A stretch of DNA of 64,000 bases, from the NCBI RefSeq assembly GCF_001280515.1, contig NZ_LBIQ01000015.1:62001-126000 (forward strand). Reading direction: 5' to 3'. A program made the position numbers and the translations under genes. This DNA comes from Mangrovimonas sp. ST2L15 (GTDB lineage Bacteria > Bacteroidota > Bacteroidia > Flavobacteriales > Flavobacteriaceae). Under the pieces are notes generated by a model, which was not told the origin of the DNA, made no database searches, and saw nothing but the letters and a program-made list of their open reading frames with translations. Each line of letters starts with the position of its first letter. Position 1 is the stretch's first letter. Below are positions 9,370 to 59,266 of the stretch, piece by piece.

Positions 9370-9392
9370 AAAAAGCCTTAATCAAACATGAT
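9370..9392. repeat. Left copy of 23-bp direct repeat bracketing the NAD module
   Basis: These 23 bases are identical to 13615-13637. At 13615 they form the left arm and loop of a complete hairpin. Here the second arm is missing and the sequence turns into unrelated DNA after position 9392. The copy lies between the aldo/keto reductase start and the phosphatase pseudogene, so the two copies enclose exactly the NAD-linked gene cluster. Confidence 0.75.
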
Positions 9393-9467: not shown

Positions 9468-10196
9468 TCAATTCCTTCCTTTTTCATCAGGATATAATTC
9501 GGGTAATGGATCACTCTGCCAAAACTCTTTAGTATCTATGTCTAAAATGGTAAGTCTTCCTGTAAAAGCTGCTCCTGTATCTACATTCCAAACATTGATA
9601 GCTTGCATTGGAAGTTAAACATCATAATACAATGTTGGAGTATGACCTATATAAATTTCATTATAAAGTTTTAATCGCTTAGGATAAAGGCTTGATTGCT
9701 TTTTAACTCTTTTATCCATTACAAGAGCCATTTCCCAAAGTGTTCTGTCCCAATTATAATTAGATTCATAAAATTCTTGCTCTGGTCCTTTCATAGAGGT
9801 GAAACCTGCATGAATGAAGAGCCTATTTTTATCGTAAATGTGATATAATTTCATTCTTTCAAAAAAGAATAAATGCTCTTTTTTCTCTTCTTCTGTTAAT
9901 TTCTCGTAGCTCTCAACCGTCAAGCTCCCGCCATGAAACAGCCAAGTTGTGCTAGCCTCCTCTGTCTTCAAATATTTTTCACTCCAAACGTCATGATTAC
10001 CTTTAATGAAAATGCATTCTTGCTTTTCTGATAAATCAATAAGGTATTGAATAGTTTGTGCAGATTCGCTCCACCCATCAACATAATCACCTAAGAAAAT
10101 TAAAACATCATCTTTAGTTACTTTAGCTCGTTCAACAACTTGAATTAATGCCCTCAAGCCCCCATGTATATCCCCAATCACTAATGTTCTTTTCAT
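9468..10196 (-). pseudogene. Calcineurin-like metallophosphatase broken by in-frame TAA
   Basis: The gene starts with ATG at 10196 and shows the metallophosphatase motifs GDIHG (D9, H11), FLGDYVDG (D37), KGNHD (N67, H68) and IHAGF. It reaches a TAA at 9615-9617 after 193 codons, in the middle of the conserved C-terminal part (GHTPTLYYDV). The same frame continues without shift for 48 more codons (LPMQAINVWNVDTGAAFTGR...QSDPLPELYPDEKGRN) to TGA at 9468. That tail is the usual end of this protein-phosphatase-like family, so a nonsense change is the simplest reading. The truncated product keeps the listed metal-site motifs but loses the late strand. It follows kptA by 4 nt and is the last gene of the NAD module. 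Confidence 0.85.
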
Positions 10197-10200
10197 TGTT

Positions 10201-10743
10201 TCATGAATTAAAGTCTATAAATGCTGTTGGCACCTCATCAGTTAACCAAACTCCATTTTCTGATTTAAAAAATTGATGCCCATTATTGCACATTTCTAAT
10301 GCTCTAATACTGAGAATTACAGGTTTTCCCCTTCTCAATCCAACATTTGTTGCCGTGTCTTTATCCTTGCTTAAATGTACATATTGGCGACTCATTTTTT
10401 TTAGGCCATATAACTTTATTTGCGACATAAACTTTTCTACTGTACCATGATATAAAACTAATGGAGGCGTTAATGGCTTTAAGTTTAAATCTATCTCCTT
10501 TAATGAATGCCCTTGATTTGCTCTAATTTTAGTCTGGTCTGAATTAAATGAAAATCGCTGTTTGTCGTTTGTTGTTACAACCTCTGCCATTTCTTTAAAT
10601 GTAAATCGCAATTCAGATTTCTCTAAAATTTCACCTACAGAAGCCCACCCCTGTTCATCTAATGAGAGGCCAATACTATCAGGTTTATGTCTTAATACTA
10701 AACTTAAAAACTTACTAATTTGTTTTTTATCTTTTTCGTTCAT
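10201..10743 (-). CDS. kptA: RNA 2'-phosphotransferase Tpt1/KptA
   Basis: Tpt1/KptA moves an internal RNA 2'-phosphate to NAD+, giving ADP-ribose 1'',2''-cyclic phosphate and nicotinamide. The protein is full length (180 residues). It has the N-terminal winged helix (FLSLVLRHKPDSIGLSLDEQ, then GWASVGEIL) and the C-terminal ADP-ribosyltransferase-like lobe (LYHGT, YVHLS, GKPVILSI, NGVWLTDEVP). The conserved family positions R18, R74 and H79 in IRANQGHS, and R137/R138, are present. It starts 20 nt after the NAD kinase-like gene and ends 4 nt before the phosphatase. Bacteria generally lack the tRNA-splicing pathway that makes the classical substrate, so its RNA target here is unknown. Confidence 0.95.
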   Translation of the reverse strand: MNEKDKKQISKFLSLVLRHKPDSIGLSLDEQGWASVGEILEKSELRFTFKEMAEVVTTNDKQRFSFNSDQTKIRANQGHSLKEIDLNLKPLTPPLVLYHGTVEKFMSQIKLYGLKKMSRQYVHLSKDKDTATNVGLRRGKPVILSIRALEMCNNGHQFFKSENGVWLTDEVPTAFIDFNS

Positions 10744-10763
10744 CTTTCTCTGTTTAAAATCAT

Positions 10764-11687
10764 TTATATTATCAAATTAGCTTTTTCTCCAGCAATACCT
10801 ATTTCTACTCTACTCCCTGAATTAAAATTCAAAAAATCAGATTCAATACCATCACTAAAAATAACACCTTTGGTTGGCATATTAGATTCAATTTTCAACG
10901 TTTGTCTTTTAGTTATAACCCCAAAGCCTATATCTGTTTGAGTAACTTTACTCAAAAAAGGTTCTCTAACTACAAAAATTAGTTTTTCATCTTCCCAATT
11001 AATTTGAGATTGATGCTCATTTTCCCCAATTGTGTTAAATCCATAAATATTATGTGACATATTGAAAATGGAACTCAACCAACCTGTCGAACCAGCCCCA
11101 GTGGAAACAATAATTCCACTTGATGATTGCTTTTCTTTTCTCCCTTTAAACCCTATTTCATATCTAGAAGATATATGTGAATCTGCTCCTATGTAAAAGT
11201 CATTAAATGCCAATAAGGTTTGTCCATCATTCAATTTTGCTTGAGCCATAGTGACTTTCTTTGTCTCAAAAACTCCTTTAACCACTTCCTTAATTAGATT
11301 ATTCAAATCACTTGGAGTATGTTTTAACAGAATACCGTCATAACGCTCTGGGTCTGGATTTACTCCTAAAATTGGAAATCCATTTACATACTTTGCTGTA
11401 TTGGCTACCAATCCATCCTGTCCTATAACTACAATCAAATCATTTTCAGTAAAAATATAAGTTGGCAAAAACGAACGATAAATAATCTTGAGCTTTAAAT
11501 GTTTGGAAATACTTTTTTGAACTTCATTCAATGATTCATAGAATTTTTCATTTTCTATTTCATAAAAATTGAAATCACCTCCAGACCTTTCGATATAAAA
11601 CTTGGCTTGAGCCTTTGAGTTAAATCTTTCGATTAGCTGCTCAAGCCTTGTTTTTTCTCTAATTATTATTGCTCGTTCAAAATTCAT
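10764..11687 (-). CDS. Divergent NAD kinase-like protein of the NAD module
   Basis: A 307-residue protein with the NAD kinase fold. The first signature reads VVIGQDGLVANTAKY (Asp91) where true NAD kinases have GGDGT. The second reads STGAGSTGWLSS where the usual text is TPTGSTAY. A canonical NAD kinase is also present at 58382-59266, so this one is a paralogue that may bind or phosphorylate NAD or a related nucleotide. ATG 11687 lies 6 nt after the SPFH stop and kptA follows 20 nt later, so the genes are very probably co-transcribed. Kinase activity cannot be assumed because of the changed motif. Confidence 0.85.
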   Translation of the reverse strand: MNFERAIIIREKTRLEQLIERFNSKAQAKFYIERSGGDFNFYEIENEKFYESLNEVQKSISKHLKLKIIYRSFLPTYIFTENDLIVVIGQDGLVANTAKYVNGFPILGVNPDPERYDGILLKHTPSDLNNLIKEVVKGVFETKKVTMAQAKLNDGQTLLAFNDFYIGADSHISSRYEIGFKGRKEKQSSSGIIVSTGAGSTGWLSSIFNMSHNIYGFNTIGENEHQSQINWEDEKLIFVVREPFLSKVTQTDIGFGVITKRQTLKIESNMPTKGVIFSDGIESDFLNFNSGSRVEIGIAGEKANLII

Positions 11688-11693
11688 ACTTAA

Positions 11694-12704
11694 TTATTTA
11701 CTGGCTAGTATTGAATCCAACAATTCTGGGGAAATATTCAAGTTCCCAATTTTATCGGCATTTTCAGCAAGTTCTCTAAAAGCCAATGCTATATTATTAC
11801 TTGGGTTATTTCCAGAGTTACTTATAGCCATTAAAGTTTTCCAGTCCACCTCTTTATATGGTTTTAAATTCGCATTTAAAACATACTCTTTCATATCAGC
11901 TTCCTTCTTCTCATTGGCAACTTGAATATCAATAAGGCCTTTTTTCTTTTCTTCTAAGGAAATATTGGAGCTCATTTCCATTTCTTTTAGCTTTTGTTCA
12001 TTTTGCTGTTTCACTACATCTGTTTCCATTTTCTTTTCGACAATCTGTTTTTGCTTTTCTTCTACAGCAATTTCAGTATTCAATTCACTTTCCCTTATCA
12101 TTCGCTCTTGCTCAACAGCAAAATTTCTACGTTCGTAAATAGCCTGGTCGGCTTCTTTTTGCAAAGATTCTCTCATTTGCGCCTCCAATGCCCTAGCCAT
12201 TTCGGGATTAGGAGTAACAGCTAATACATTTACACTTAAAATTTCCAGACCTAGCATTTGAACCGTTTTGGATTTCTGAATACTCGTGAATATTTCAGTT
12301 TCTATCTCATCAAGCTTTCTCAAAGCTTCTTTTAAACTCAAACGTTGAATAATAGACGCACTAGCTGTTTGAGCTTCATTTATAATACGCTGTTGAATCT
12401 TTTCATAATCGTTTTTTAAGTACTGCTTTCTGTTGTTTACAGTAAAGTCCAAAGTCTCGGCCAATTGTTTTGGATTCAAAATCTTATAGGTGACCTGACC
12501 TTGCAATGAAACTTCCTGATAATCTTTAGTTGTTTCATTAAATACAAATTGAAAATCATCACTTTGTACAGGAATTGAAACTATAGATGAATTAGGTGAA
12601 AAATAGAAGAATGACAATCCTCTCCCTTCTTTTTTAATTTTCCCTGCCTTGTAATGAATTACATAATTCATTGAGTCGAATTTTATATAATTTATTCCTA
12701 ACAT
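11694..12704 (-). CDS. SPFH/band-7 domain protein
   Basis: A 336-residue SPFH (prohibitin/flotillin-like) protein. The SPFH domain covers about residues 1-175 (for example DYQEVSLQGQVTYKILNPKQ, MLGLEILSVNVLAVTPNPEM). A long charged helix rich in E, K and Q follows (about 176-275), as expected for oligomer assembly. No membrane segment or signal peptide is visible, unlike many SPFH proteins, so it may act in the cytoplasm or attach to the membrane peripherally. It is the first gene after the regulator and is preceded by two TTTGCGT-N7-ACGCAAA sites, the nearer one overlapping a -7 promoter box. Its role in the module is not known. Confidence 0.88.
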   Translation of the reverse strand: MLGINYIKFDSMNYVIHYKAGKIKKEGRGLSFFYFSPNSSIVSIPVQSDDFQFVFNETTKDYQEVSLQGQVTYKILNPKQLAETLDFTVNNRKQYLKNDYEKIQQRIINEAQTASASIIQRLSLKEALRKLDEIETEIFTSIQKSKTVQMLGLEILSVNVLAVTPNPEMARALEAQMRESLQKEADQAIYERRNFAVEQERMIRESELNTEIAVEEKQKQIVEKKMETDVVKQQNEQKLKEMEMSSNISLEEKKKGLIDIQVANEKKEADMKEYVLNANLKPYKEVDWKTLMAISNSGNNPSNNIALAFRELAENADKIGNLNISPELLDSILASK

Positions 12705-12726
12705 AACTTTGAGTTTTAAATATTAG

Positions 12727-12747
12727 TTTGCGTATTTATTACACAAA
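12727..12747. promoter_or_regulatory. Operator 1 of the NAD module, overlapping the SPFH promoter
   Basis: The site is TTTGCGT-N7-ACACAAA (one mismatch from a perfect inverted repeat), 22 nt upstream of the SPFH start codon. On the minus strand its outer half-site runs into TACATTTG (12744-12751), a match to the flavobacterial -7 element TANNTTTG. A TTG stands 20 nt further upstream (complement of 12772-12774), the normal -33 spacing. Binding here would cover the promoter, so repression is inferred. The likely binder is the Nudix-winged-helix protein encoded upstream. Confidence 0.65.
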
Positions 12748-12780
12748 TGTAGTCAGAGAAAATATTTCAACCAAACATAT

Positions 12781-12801
12781 TTTGCGTTTTTTTTACGCAA
12801 A
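12781..12801. promoter_or_regulatory. Operator 2 of the NAD module
   Basis: A perfect inverted repeat TTTGCGT-N7-ACGCAAA with an all-T spacer, of the same size as the sites at 12727 and 13506. It lies in the gap between the regulator stop (12829) and the SPFH start (12704). Its outer half-site overlaps TATATTTG on the minus strand (12798-12805), again a TANNTTTG box. The hairpin-with-T-tract look could also suggest a weak terminator of the regulator gene, but the identical spacing in three sites favours an operator. Confidence 0.62.
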
Positions 12802-12828
12802 TATATTAATTAATTGATTTTAAGCTTT

Positions 12829-13506
12829 TTAAATTTCGAATATTATTCCTTCTTTTTTCAGCTGGAAGTAACGCTTCTGATTAAATTGGAATAAATTGGC
12901 AGGTCTACCCGATCCTTTCGAAGTCTTTTCTTCTAGTTCATCAAGGATATTTAAACTCAATATTTTCTTTCTAAAATTTCGTCTATCAATATCCCTACCT
13001 AAAAGAGTAGTGTAGAGTTTTTCTAAATCTGAAAAAGGGAATTTTTTATCAAGTAGCTCAAAACCTAAAGGTTCATAGGTTATTTTACCTTGCAATCTTT
13101 TGATAGCAATGTCGAGAATATTTTTATGGTCAAAGGAAAGTTTTGGTAGATTCTTAATATTAAACCATTCTACTTCTGCTGCATCAGTTGATGCAAATAA
13201 TTTGAATGCATTAGGTCTAACCAAAGCAAAATATGCTACAGATACCACTCGCCCCCTTGGATCTCTTTCGGGTTTACCAAATGTATATAACTGCTCAAGA
13301 TAGTTTATCTTAACACCTGTTTCTTCATGTAGTTCTCTCTCGACTGCTTCTTCTAAAGATTCTCCATTGAGGACAAATCCCCCAGGAATAGCCCACGCTC
13401 CTTTAAAGGGGTCATATTTTCTCTTAATTAATAGTACCGAAATATTACCTTCTTCATATCCAAATACGACAGCATCAACCGTTAATTTTATAAATTGGTC
13501 ACTCAT
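12829..13506 (-). CDS. Nudix domain - winged-helix regulator, NrtR-like
   Basis: A 225-residue protein with an N-terminal Nudix domain and a C-terminal winged helix, the layout of NrtR, the ADP-ribose-responsive repressor of NAD metabolism. The Nudix box is complete (G43-x5-E49-x7-R57-E58-L59-x-E61-E62-x-G64), so hydrolase activity may be retained. NrtR proteins include both active and inactive forms. The DNA-binding part is LEKLYTTLLGRDIDRRNFRK with the wing KGSGRPANLFQFN. ATG 13506 is the first codon and abuts a TATGTGT-N7-ACGCAAA site, so self-control is likely. It heads the NAD module and is separated from SPFH by a 124-nt gap with two further sites. Confidence 0.88.
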   Translation of the reverse strand: MSDQFIKLTVDAVVFGYEEGNISVLLIKRKYDPFKGAWAIPGGFVLNGESLEEAVERELHEETGVKINYLEQLYTFGKPERDPRGRVVSVAYFALVRPNAFKLFASTDAAEVEWFNIKNLPKLSFDHKNILDIAIKRLQGKITYEPLGFELLDKKFPFSDLEKLYTTLLGRDIDRRNFRKKILSLNILDELEEKTSKGSGRPANLFQFNQKRYFQLKKEGIIFEI

Positions 13507-13526
13507 ATGTGTAGTTTATACGCAAA
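13506..13526. promoter_or_regulatory. Operator 3, at the start of the nrtR-like gene
   Basis: TATGTGT-N7-ACGCAAA, the same 21-bp layout as operators 1 and 2 with two changes in the inner half. Its outer half-site overlaps TACTTTTG on the minus strand (13523-13530), a -7 box of the TANNTTTG type. It therefore covers the presumed promoter and touches the start codon of the regulator gene, as expected for autorepression. No clear -33 TTG was found at the usual distance. Confidence 0.58.
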
Positions 13527-13614
13527 AGTAATTGTTTTTATTCGACATAATGTTACTTTAAAATCCTATTAAGAAAGATAATAAACAAATTAAAATAGTT
13601 TGACTTATAACATT

Positions 13615-13637
13615 AAAAAGCCTTAATCAAACATGAT
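13615..13637. repeat. Right copy of 23-bp direct repeat bracketing the NAD module
   Basis: Identical over 23 bases to 9370-9392. Here it forms part of an intact hairpin, whereas the left copy is half a hairpin. The pair flanks the whole nrtR-SPFH-NADK-kptA-phosphatase cluster, which suggests insertion or duplication at a terminator. Confidence 0.75.
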
Positions 13638-13647
13638 TAAGGCTTTT
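13616..13647. terminator. Perfect bidirectional hairpin
   Basis: The arms AAAAGCCTTAATCA (13616-13629) and TGATTAAGGCTTTT (13634-13647) pair perfectly around a 4-nt loop, giving A and T tracts on both sides. This is a typical intrinsic terminator for either strand. It lies downstream of the dioxygenase gene and upstream of the nrtR-like promoter. Confidence 0.75.
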
Positions 13648-13789
13648 AATTGACTAACTAAAACAATCAAAAAATAAATATGAATCTGCTATATAACCTT
13701 TTAATGGCTTCATATATGTTTTCAAATTTATCCGATTACTTTAAACTTTAAAAACAATTGAGGTCAACCATCTATACAACAGGGTGAAC

Positions 13790-58381: not shown

Positions 58382-59266
58382 ATGAAGGTAGCGATATTTG
58401 GGCAATTTTACCATCAAAATGCCGAGGAGGCTATAAAGATTCTTTTTGATTATCTCGAAAAGAAAAATGGGGATTTCTTTATTGAAGAAACTTTCTTGCA
58501 AATCATCAACAGCCAAATCAATCCCGATGAAAATGCTTACCATTTTAATACCTTCAAAACATTAGATGACAGTTTTGATTTATTAATAAGTATCGGTGGC
58601 GACGGCACTATTTTAAGAGCAATCACCTTTGTAAAAGATAAATCCATTCCCATTGTTGGAATTAATACCGGGCGATTAGGTTTTTTGGCAACCATTCAAA
58701 ACAATCGCATTGAAACTGCAATGGATAACATTTTTGAAGGGAGATACAAGATTTCAGAACGTAGTCTATTGGAAGTCAAAACAACACCTTCCAATGAAAA
58801 TATGGAAAACCTAAATTTCGCATTAAACGAAATTACGGTAAGTCGAAAAAACACTACTTCCATGATTACGGTAGACACTCATTTAAATGGAGAATACCTT
58901 ACATCATACTGGAGTGATGGCTTGATTGTTTCTACCCCCACGGGCTCTACAGGATATTCTCTAAGTTGCGGTGGCCCAGTAATTGACCCCCATGCTGAAA
59001 GTTTTGTGCTCACCCCTATTGCGCCACACAATTTAAACGCAAGACCTCTTGTTATTAAAGACACTACAGAAATTCAATTGAAAGTATCTGGAAGAGAACA
59101 CCAACATTTAATCTCCCTAGACTCTAGAATAGCCACTTTAGATAATGAAACACTCATAACCATCTCCAAAGCACCTTTCAAAATAAAAATGATTGAACTC
59201 TTAGATGAAAGTTTTCTAGACACCCTTAGAAAAAAACTTCTTTGGGGAGAAGATAAGCGTAATTAA
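58382..59266 (+). CDS. nadK: NAD kinase (canonical)
   Basis: Makes NADP+ from NAD+ and ATP. The 294-residue protein has the complete signature ISIGGDGTILRA (Asp74), GINTGRLGFLA, the NE motif (FALNEITVSRK), and STPTGSTGYSLSCGGP. Tail motifs RPLVI and ISLDSR are present. It directly follows the CBS-domain gene. Compare the divergent paralogue at 10764-11687, which lacks GGDGT. Confidence 0.96.
   Translation: MKVAIFGQFYHQNAEEAIKILFDYLEKKNGDFFIEETFLQIINSQINPDENAYHFNTFKTLDDSFDLLISIGGDGTILRAITFVKDKSIPIVGINTGRLGFLATIQNNRIETAMDNIFEGRYKISERSLLEVKTTPSNENMENLNFALNEITVSRKNTTSMITVDTHLNGEYLTSYWSDGLIVSTPTGSTGYSLSCGGPVIDPHAESFVLTPIAPHNLNARPLVIKDTTEIQLKVSGREHQHLISLDSRIATLDNETLITISKAPFKIKMIELLDESFLDTLRKKLLWGEDKRN

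Follow-up and report, generated by a model that had tools for sequence, protein, structure and literature searches.

An SPFH-NAD kinase-like gene pair as the core of a putative NrtR-regulated, KptA-bearing operon in Mangrovimonas sp. ST2L15

NAD genes are controlled by NrtR proteins (PMC6800001, PMC4666351), a family in which AraR senses sugars (PMC4666351), and the NrtR and AraR proteins described in these papers have impaired Nudix boxes. Human mitochondrial NADK2 phosphorylates NAD+ using ATP or polyphosphate and, preliminarily, NADH, and the same paper gives no evident phosphorylation of ADP-ribose by ATP/polyphosphate NAD kinases (PMC8553519). For the RNA 2'-phosphotransferase KptA, the positions of the active-site tetrad and the chemistry are described in a paper that gives no agreed bacterial substrate (PMC6333775), and the archaeal enzyme erases an internal tRNA 2'-phosphate set by ArkI (PMC9095486). 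Here we analyzed a stretch of 64,000 nucleotides from Mangrovimonas sp. ST2L15 (contig NZ_LBIQ01000015.1, positions 62,001 to 126,000 of the forward strand), called the window, which carries genes related to NrtR, NADK2 and KptA in a single operon-like array.

A reading-frame check of the window confirmed five neighbouring genes at 9468-13506, all on the minus strand, as the first-pass annotation had proposed: an NrtR-like regulator, an SPFH protein, a divergent NAD kinase homologue (NADKL), KptA and a metallophosphatase. Pfam supported four of the five (NUDIX plus NrtR_WHD, Band_7, PTS_2-RNA and Metallophos), and NADKL, the exception, was assigned by its predicted fold. The intergenic gaps measure 124 bp between nrtR and SPFH, 6 bp between SPFH and NADKL, 20 bp between NADKL and kptA, and 4 bp between kptA and the metallophosphatase gene, sizes that look as in an operon. 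Judging from gene neighbourhoods across phyla and plasmids, the conserved core is the SPFH-NADKL pair, accompanied by the regulator in part of the loci. Our best reading, a tentative one held at a little less than even confidence, is a mobile, NrtR-regulated and ADP-ribose-induced stress unit that combines an NAD(H) kinase and a scaffold with a payload for RNA 2'-phosphate clean-up. The features are as follows.

12829-13506, minus strand: NrtR-like regulator, with a Nudix domain, an intact Nudix box and an NrtR winged helix
11694-12704, minus strand: SPFH/Band 7 protein, with a Band_7 domain, no predicted transmembrane helix and a long helix at residues 167-284
10764-11687, minus strand: NADKL, putative NADK2-type NAD(H) kinase homologue, with GQDG, ND and GSTG motifs and a predicted fold
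10201-10743, minus strand: KptA/Tpt1 RNA 2'-phosphotransferase, tetrad R18-H19-R63-R119 present
9615-10196, minus strand: calcineurin-like metallophosphatase, with an in-frame TAA that shortens it and the expected catalytic motifs ahead of this stop
9468-9614, minus strand: rest of the metallophosphatase frame, open downstream of the TAA, resembling in alignment the C-terminus of full-length relatives
13506-13526, no strand: operator-like palindrome over the nrtR start codon, one mismatch
12781-12801, no strand: operator-like palindrome TTTGCGT-N7-ACGCAAA upstream of SPFH, from pattern recurrence
12727-12747, no strand: second operator-like palindrome upstream of SPFH, from pattern recurrence
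9370-9392, no strand: 23-bp direct repeat, copy distal to nrtR, from an exact repeat search
13615-13637, no strand: 23-bp direct repeat, copy upstream of nrtR, inside a terminator-like hairpin with arms at 13611-13629 and 13634-13652

Relatives of NADKL were found in at least 572 stretches of bacterial and archaeal genomes, and the best 80 were kept (the 80 loci); 32 of them have less than 5 kb of sequence on one side, and part of them are metagenome bins, possibly with stray contigs. An SPFH gene lies less than 200 bp upstream of NADKL in 77 of the 80, with a gap of at most 30 bp in 64 and overlapping genes in 35. Among the three exceptions, one has a gap of 212 bp (L079) and one an over-long gene call over the SPFH reading frame (L087); the third, L050, is considered below. 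Pairwise distances of SPFH and NADKL were correlated with r = 0.87 for those loci, 74 of the 80, in which the SPFH protein is of sufficient length, the maximum of 500 permutations being 0.23. Phyla are intermingled in the NADKL tree, which has 20 changes among 11 groups versus a minimum of 10. Named isolates with the pair outside Bacteroidota belong to Corallococcus, Hyalangium and Aromatoleum, and the pair is also on plasmids of Rhizobium, Providencia and Acinetobacter. Four plasmids (Providencia, Acinetobacter and two of Rhizobium) carry the whole trio of regulator, SPFH and NADKL, the last annotated there as 'hypothetical protein' or 'sugar kinase'. On one plasmid, pALWED1.1 of Acinetobacter lwoffii (L195), the Nudix regulator, an SPFH gene read in two pieces and NADKL adjoin tetR(H)-tet(H). 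Partial NADKL matches on small Pasteurellaceae plasmids were listed in the same search of plasmids.

The spread of NADKL is patchy. Strong matches (E ≤1e-100) occur in 5 of the 199 genomes of the family set, own genome included, and 8 further family genomes with matches at 7e-4 to 1.6e-5 and 24-30% identity were taken for ordinary NAD kinases; at E 1e-20, 13 of the 395 genomes of the phylum set were positive. This distribution fits an accessory rather than a household gene. No paper in the literature collection searched names both SPFH and NAD kinase, an earlier description in surveys of NAD gene neighbourhoods being possible. An NrtR-type NAD/ADP-ribose operon is known in kind, and the SPFH-NADKL core appears to be new.

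The identity of NADKL rests on fold and profile. No Pfam family, NAD_kinase included, matched at E 0.001, and the NCBIfam NAD kinase matches were weak (best 5.3e-9, 35.6 bits versus a cut-off of 316); our claim is therefore kinship and not Pfam membership. The AlphaFold2 model (pLDDT 89.5) predicts a full NAD kinase fold. It matched five human NADK2 entries with Z 27.2-28.4 over 275-293 residues at 2.3-2.5 Å, the best with Z 28.4 over 290 residues at 2.5 Å, and all remaining entries listed with Z ≤22.6; an entry titled NADK2-ACKA (Z 20.3) was taken for another enzyme so named. Foldseek likewise placed human NADK2 first (1.6e-21, query TM-score 0.77), and gave 7.2e-20 and 0.64 for a bacterial NAD kinase. 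These Foldseek and VIA-align comparisons cover the top matches listed, and unlisted families stay possible. A profile of 35 NADKL rows matched human NADK2 with a whole-sequence E of 2.7e-14, spread over two stretches, and the next NAD kinase with 3e-6. In the same rows G89, D91, G92, N162, D163 and G199 are invariant and S200-T201-G202 nearly so, and the second glycine of GGDG is replaced by glutamine in at least 90%. NADKL and NADK2 have in common DPER..G, E.QSSG / EKQKSSG and TG.GS..W in the alignment. The models thus point to an NAD kinase homologue structurally closest to human mitochondrial NADK2. Since the described acceptors of NADK2 are NAD+ and NADH, and ADP-ribose is not an evident one, NAD(H) is by analogy the likely acceptor of NADKL.

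A canonical NAD kinase is already encoded at 58394-58747 of the window, about 47 kb from NADKL, and contig C10 gave a second, weaker family match. Because of this enzyme, NADKL is probably something other than the household NAD kinase. The same finding bears on a simpler explanation, in which the operon would serve ordinary NAD cofactor homeostasis: an NrtR-type repressor would control a scaffold and a supernumerary NAD kinase, and KptA and the phosphatase would be passengers. The NrtR control of NAD genes (PMC6800001, PMC4666351) and the NAMPT-like genes in three NADKL loci agree with it; the canonical kinase, the patchy spread in family and phylum, and the many ADP-ribose hydrolases associated with the pair in Bacteroidota make it rather unlikely.

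The SPFH protein matched Band_7 with 2.3e-21 (77.1 bits, cut-off 23.6). Its model shows an SPFH domain, a single helix of 118 residues (167-284) and a C-terminal motif kept in 23 aligned sequences, at a pTM of 0.49 and with low confidence at the C-terminus. The best matches in the Protein Data Bank (PDB) include erlin, stomatin, HflK/C, prohibitin, flotillin and the vault protein. A membrane anchor of the stomatin or HflK/C type was not found in the window protein: hydropathy reaches at most 1.34 over 19 residues, below 1.6, and there is no N-terminal helix. Of its homologues, 41 of 83 reach 1.6, and 7 of the 8 highest do so at residues 147-180.

The regulator matched NUDIX (6.5e-22) and NrtR_WHD (7e-24), both above cut-off. 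With 155 bits against a cut-off of 400 it scored below the NCBIfam equivalog of ADP-ribose-responsive NtrR proteins (NF050029) and was not assigned to it. Its best PDB match is AraR (5bs6, 3e-50); 3gz5, labelled MutT/nudix, which we take to be Shewanella NrtR, matched as well (1.7e-33). The Nudix box is intact in this protein and in 20 of the 27 homologues tested. A strong homologue of the regulator lies within 5 kb of the SPFH-NADKL pair in 20 of the 80 loci, and the own genome has three in total, the window copy included.

The candidate operator pattern TTTGYGT-N7-ACRCAAA has two perfect sites in the window (12727-12747 and 12781-12801) and one with a single mismatch (13506-13526). In the genome of 3.56 Mb there is no other perfect site, and there are three further sites with one mismatch. 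The perfect fit in the window is no test, because the pattern was derived from those same sites. At up to two mismatches the genome holds 48 sites versus 85 for a reversed-pattern control, so only near-perfect sites are informative. The regions upstream of nrtR/SPFH in seven close relatives, 3,510 b in all, contain 17 sites, versus 5 in 92,593 b elsewhere; for 11 further Bacteroidota loci the figures are 22 in 5,940 b versus 17 in 183,249 b. Eleven loci of other phyla gave 3 in 5,922 b versus 4 in 145,650 b, with a TTAGTGT-type form. This recurrence supports the palindromes as putative operators of the NrtR-like regulator, and bears out the earlier proposal that such a regulator heads an NAD/ADP-ribose gene set.

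KptA scored above the cut-off of PTS_2-RNA (PF01885, 7.6e-53) and of NCBIfam NF002014 (244 bits versus 239). Its tetrad Arg-His-Arg-Arg, mapped by hand on alignments, is complete (R18-H19-R63-R119), which upholds the original assignment (tetrad positions from PMC6333775). The metallophosphatase gene is shorter than first drawn: the frame reaches 9468 only by reading through a TAA, the 194th of its 243 codons, and the product of 193 aa ends at 9615. In the alignment 14 of 16 other sequences are full length (242-258 aa) with a residue at the stop position, and the remaining two are the pieces of one split copy (L161). The motifs DxH, GDxxD, GNH, HAG and GHTP all lie before the stop, by their alignment positions, so activity is possible despite the truncation.

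KptA lies within 8 kb of NADKL in 9 of the 80 loci and is absent there in 71. Conversely, 47 of the 395 phylum genomes have KptA, 42 of them without NADKL. Both occur together in 5 of 395 genomes versus 1.5 expected (P 0.012, ignoring relatedness), co-located in three; with the own genome excluded the count is 4 of 394 versus 1.4 expected (P 0.040, likewise ignoring relatedness), co-located at 3-6 kb in two. Regulator, SPFH, NADKL and KptA are found together in 8 of 83 other NADKL loci (the 80 plus L016, L152 and L153), and all five families in three, L069, L085 and L152, the last chosen for its nearby KptA; the grouping is therefore not confined to this genome. The exact compact five-gene order was seen in the window only, among the loci examined. 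KptA was rejected as the core of the module because the SPFH-NADKL pair is conserved and KptA is variable, and KptA and the metallophosphatase form a variable payload.

No RtcB gene was detected in the Mangrovimonas genome at E 0.001, in a search that was positive in 9 of 14 control genomes. The macro domain gave no Pfam match there at the same threshold; a DarG-like macrodomain without Pfam match would escape this search. A complete route for RNA repair or Appr1p recycling is therefore not visible in this genome. Among 20 neighbours outside the recurrent families, Pfam gave mostly unrelated genes or no match, the exception being an RlaP-type RNA-repair nucleotidyltransferase immediately 3' of SPFH-NADKL in a Bacteroidota bin (L054:1404-2234).

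These results weigh on the proposal of the first-pass annotation that the operon may repair or mark RNA. Put as a rival reading, it would be primarily a module for RNA 2'-phosphate repair or marking, with KptA and the phosphatase as effectors and SPFH and NADKL as helpers. The intact active site of KptA, the RlaP gene in L054 and RtcB in four loci (L023, L033, L060 and L090, at 3.5-5.7 kb) agree with it, as does a phosphatase of this family within 3.5 kb in 12 of 29 other KptA loci, the best-scoring 29 of 46 in other genomes, examined within 3.5-kb flanks. The scarcity of KptA near NADKL, the stop codon in the window phosphatase, the own genome's lack of an RtcB match, and the presence of regulator and core, with KptA missing, on plasmids and in other phyla all speak against it. 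We regard this explanation as unlikely and did not retain it as the main function.

NAD kinases phosphorylate a ribose 2'-OH, and NADKL stands directly beside KptA in the window, as it does in L045 and L046, both from Hymenobacter. Both points would suit a writer-eraser pair, in which NADKL would add a 2'-phosphate to RNA or to an NAD-capped RNA end and KptA would remove it, similar to ArkI and KptA on archaeal tRNA (PMC9095486). The 71 NADKL loci without nearby KptA, the 42 KptA genomes without NADKL, and a fold and motifs of the dinucleotide-kinase type make such a pair very improbable.

In Bacteroidota the SPFH-NADKL pair is part of larger clusters whose other genes encode NADAR, macro, DarG-like macro, PARG, ARH, Sir2, DUF4291, 2OG oxygenase, KptA and metallophosphatase proteins; elsewhere, regulators of this kind stand at the head of clusters that contain NADAR, macro, PARG, ARH and Sir2 genes. 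At least one gene of this ADP-ribose set lies within 8 kb in 16 of the 80 loci, and 21 of the 29 other KptA loci have another gene of the set within 3.5 kb, the phosphatase and two unnamed families being counted. A recurrent protein of 157 aa in the extended clusters (L080:9148-9621) has no Pfam match and resembles the macrodomain part of DarG (PADLOC, 8.8e-13). Inside NrtR/KptA-type clusters three genes also recur together (L157:5276-7698, also L159, L160 and L164): two encode proteins without Pfam match, one of about 111 aa and one of about 285 aa, and the third an adenylosuccinate-synthetase-like protein.

Clusters of genus g127, presumably Flavobacterium, have a PRPP-synthetase-like gene after the regulator, and a NAMPT-like gene comes last. 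The NAMPT-like protein of L155 scored 625 bits against structures of phage Namat (9W5X, 9W5W) and about 243-246 bits against mammalian-type NAMPT. By manual mapping it keeps the residues aligned with the Namat clamp residues R40, F392 and Y396 (PMC12774641). The PRPP-synthetase-like protein shares about 43% with phage proteins in the ten best of 1,488 records, from which we infer Adps. A clamp-bearing Namat with an Adps-like gene, an arrangement of the NAD+-reconstituting NARP1 type, was seen beside ADP-ribose hydrolases in NrtR-KptA clusters of L155, L157, L159, L164 and others. Neither Adps nor Namat was found at 2001-24000 of the window. Both clamp motifs occur in 12 of 18 KptA clusters without NADKL versus 0 of 22 loci with NADKL, the window included (Fisher P 3e-6), within flanks of limited length. 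Strict exclusion between SPFH-NADKL and NAD salvage was rejected, NAMPT-like genes without the clamp motif lying upstream of the pair in L043, L176 and L180. One kind of regulated cluster thus seems to carry NARP1-like genes, or SPFH-NADKL, or salvage genes together with SPFH-NADKL. A bolder proposal, which we consider doubtful, is that SPFH-NADKL is an undescribed mobile system, in which a soluble SPFH cage would hold an NADK2-type NAD(H) kinase, a bacterial relative of mitochondrial NADK2. ADP-ribose would switch this system on, and it would protect cells that lose NAD+ by a route other than NARP1.

An exact direct repeat of 23 bp encloses the five genes, its copies 4,245 bp apart, and a 22-base probe found no further copy in the genome within two mismatches. 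The copy at 13615-13637 spans most of one arm and the loop of the terminator-like hairpin at 13611-13652. The unit is apparently a compact gene set inserted as one piece, which the bounding repeats fit, and no integrase lies within it. Flanking repeats as a general trait of such units were not supported: among 37 other units an exact repeat of at least 14 bp was found in L044 and L071 only, one flank being shorter than 200 b in several (including L085, L096, L158, L160, L162 and L163). In L044, a Bryobacteraceae bin, a 34-bp exact direct repeat surrounds an SPFH-NADKL-NrtR trio; the 14-bp repeat of L071 is marginal, shuffles reaching 11. A 17-base core of the window repeat has one exact match in viral contigs (L202), and of 201 loci searched for a 19-base core, the 8 that contain it are all stretches of the Mangrovimonas genome itself. 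For an empty-site comparison with the genus relative G028, no orthologous flank could be defined because its aldo/keto reductase matches are distant (28-32% identity) and the response-regulator gene flanking the unit has many paralogues.

A virus origin was rejected: viral contigs gave no confirmed NADKL relative, and phage records yielded relatives of neither NADKL nor the SPFH protein. PADLOC gave no match for NADKL or SPFH at E 0.01; the regulator matched PDC-S07 (7.7e-12) and PDC-M62B (0.0095), the phosphatase PDC-S10 (3.5e-7) and KptA REase_II (0.0098), none of which is a complete named system. A dedicated anti-phage system with the SPFH-NADKL pair as sensor and effector would be consistent with the patchy, mobile distribution, the DarG-like macrodomain of the extended clusters, the vicinity of a type I restriction gene in L029, an HD-CE/HATPase gene immediately downstream of the pair in L095, and the likeness of regulator and phosphatase to the candidate families PDC-S07 and PDC-S10. 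The pair itself is without PADLOC match, the window unit has no recognised toxin-like partner, and phages and viral contigs yielded no homologue, so we judge this system quite improbable.

We return to the NrtR-regulated stress unit, which would work as follows. The Nudix/winged-helix protein would repress its own gene and the SPFH-NADKL-kptA-phosphatase operon through the three palindromes. Upon NAD+ cleavage, ADP-ribose or a related product may bind the Nudix domain, as characterised NrtR proteins suggest, and the operators would be released. The long helices of SPFH may build a soluble ring or cage holding NADKL, its near-constant partner. NADKL would phosphorylate the NAD(H) that remains to NADP(H), which may be a poorer substrate for NAD+-cleaving enzymes and could feed NADPH-dependent recovery. 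With its conserved active site, KptA could strip 2'-phosphates from damaged or marked RNA, helped by the phosphatase where intact, giving Appr>p. These two would be the payload, in place of which, or in addition, related clusters have NADAR, macro, PARG, ARH and Sir2.

Several observations weigh against this reading. The Foldseek margin between NADK2 and the bacterial NAD kinase is small, the best single stretch of the profile gives 27.8 bits for NADK2 versus 29.0 for a bacterial NAD kinase, and GQDG in place of GGDG means that the acceptor may differ. In L050 the 498 bp upstream of NADKL gave no sign of SPFH; this locus is possibly a true exception or an SPFH-free relative. No NrtR-like gene lies within 5 kb in 60 of the 80 loci, and in 64 the ADP-ribose set is unrepresented within 8 kb, so that a minority of loci, mostly from Bacteroidota, carries the stress reading. 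Members of the NrtR family sense sugars too, and one of these, AraR, is the best PDB match of the regulator; the intact Nudix box of the window protein departs from the characterised NrtR regulators. Of 17 KptA clusters without NADKL, 11 of them with a regulator, only 4 showed the operator; sites there number 4 in 2,571 b upstream of nrtR or SPFH versus 35 in 281,777 b elsewhere. Lastly, the Namat contrast is confounded and its P value inflated, because 11 of the 12 Namat clusters come from genus g127.

On the stress-unit reading, an unnamed gene pair of many phyla and plasmids gains a testable identity as a putative NADK2-like kinase with an SPFH scaffold, and bacterial NADKL proteins may offer relatives for the study of mitochondrial NADK2. 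Bacterial KptA is tied to an NAD/ADP-ribose gene set with candidate operators, and the NrtR/KptA gene set is linked to NAD+ reconstitution genes known from phages.

Compared with the NrtR family (Shewanella NrtR, Mycobacterium NrtR, Bacteroides AraR), the window regulator has the same Nudix domain and NrtR winged helix, and palindromes before its own gene and the adjoining operon, of the TTAGTGT type in two relatives from other phyla; it differs by its intact Nudix box, by the AT-rich candidate operator, and by preceding SPFH-NADKL-KptA instead of NAD synthesis genes. Human mitochondrial NADK2 (C5orf33/MNADK) resembles NADKL along the whole predicted chain, the N-terminal helical region included, and by SSG and a GxGSxxW-type motif replacing SDG and GST.Y, whereas NADKL has GQDG instead of GGDG, about 21% identity and an SPFH gene alongside in nearly all loci. 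With stomatin, erlin, prohibitin, HflK/C and the vault protein, the window SPFH protein shares the predicted architecture, an SPFH domain that leads into a single, very extended helix, but it lacks a predicted N-terminal membrane anchor and has a C-terminal motif conserved among NADKL-linked relatives. The window KptA is a full member of KptA/Tpt1, over the family cut-off and with the complete tetrad, and is set apart by its place in a putatively regulated NAD operon. NARP1 (Adps plus Namat) resides in similar NrtR/KptA-bearing clusters of related Bacteroidota without SPFH-NADKL, whereas the window unit has neither Adps nor Namat. Finally, de Souza and Aravind reportedly predicted KptA-macro-NADAR neighbourhoods in 2012, which resemble this locus in the clustering of NAD/ADP-ribose genes with an RNA-repair theme.

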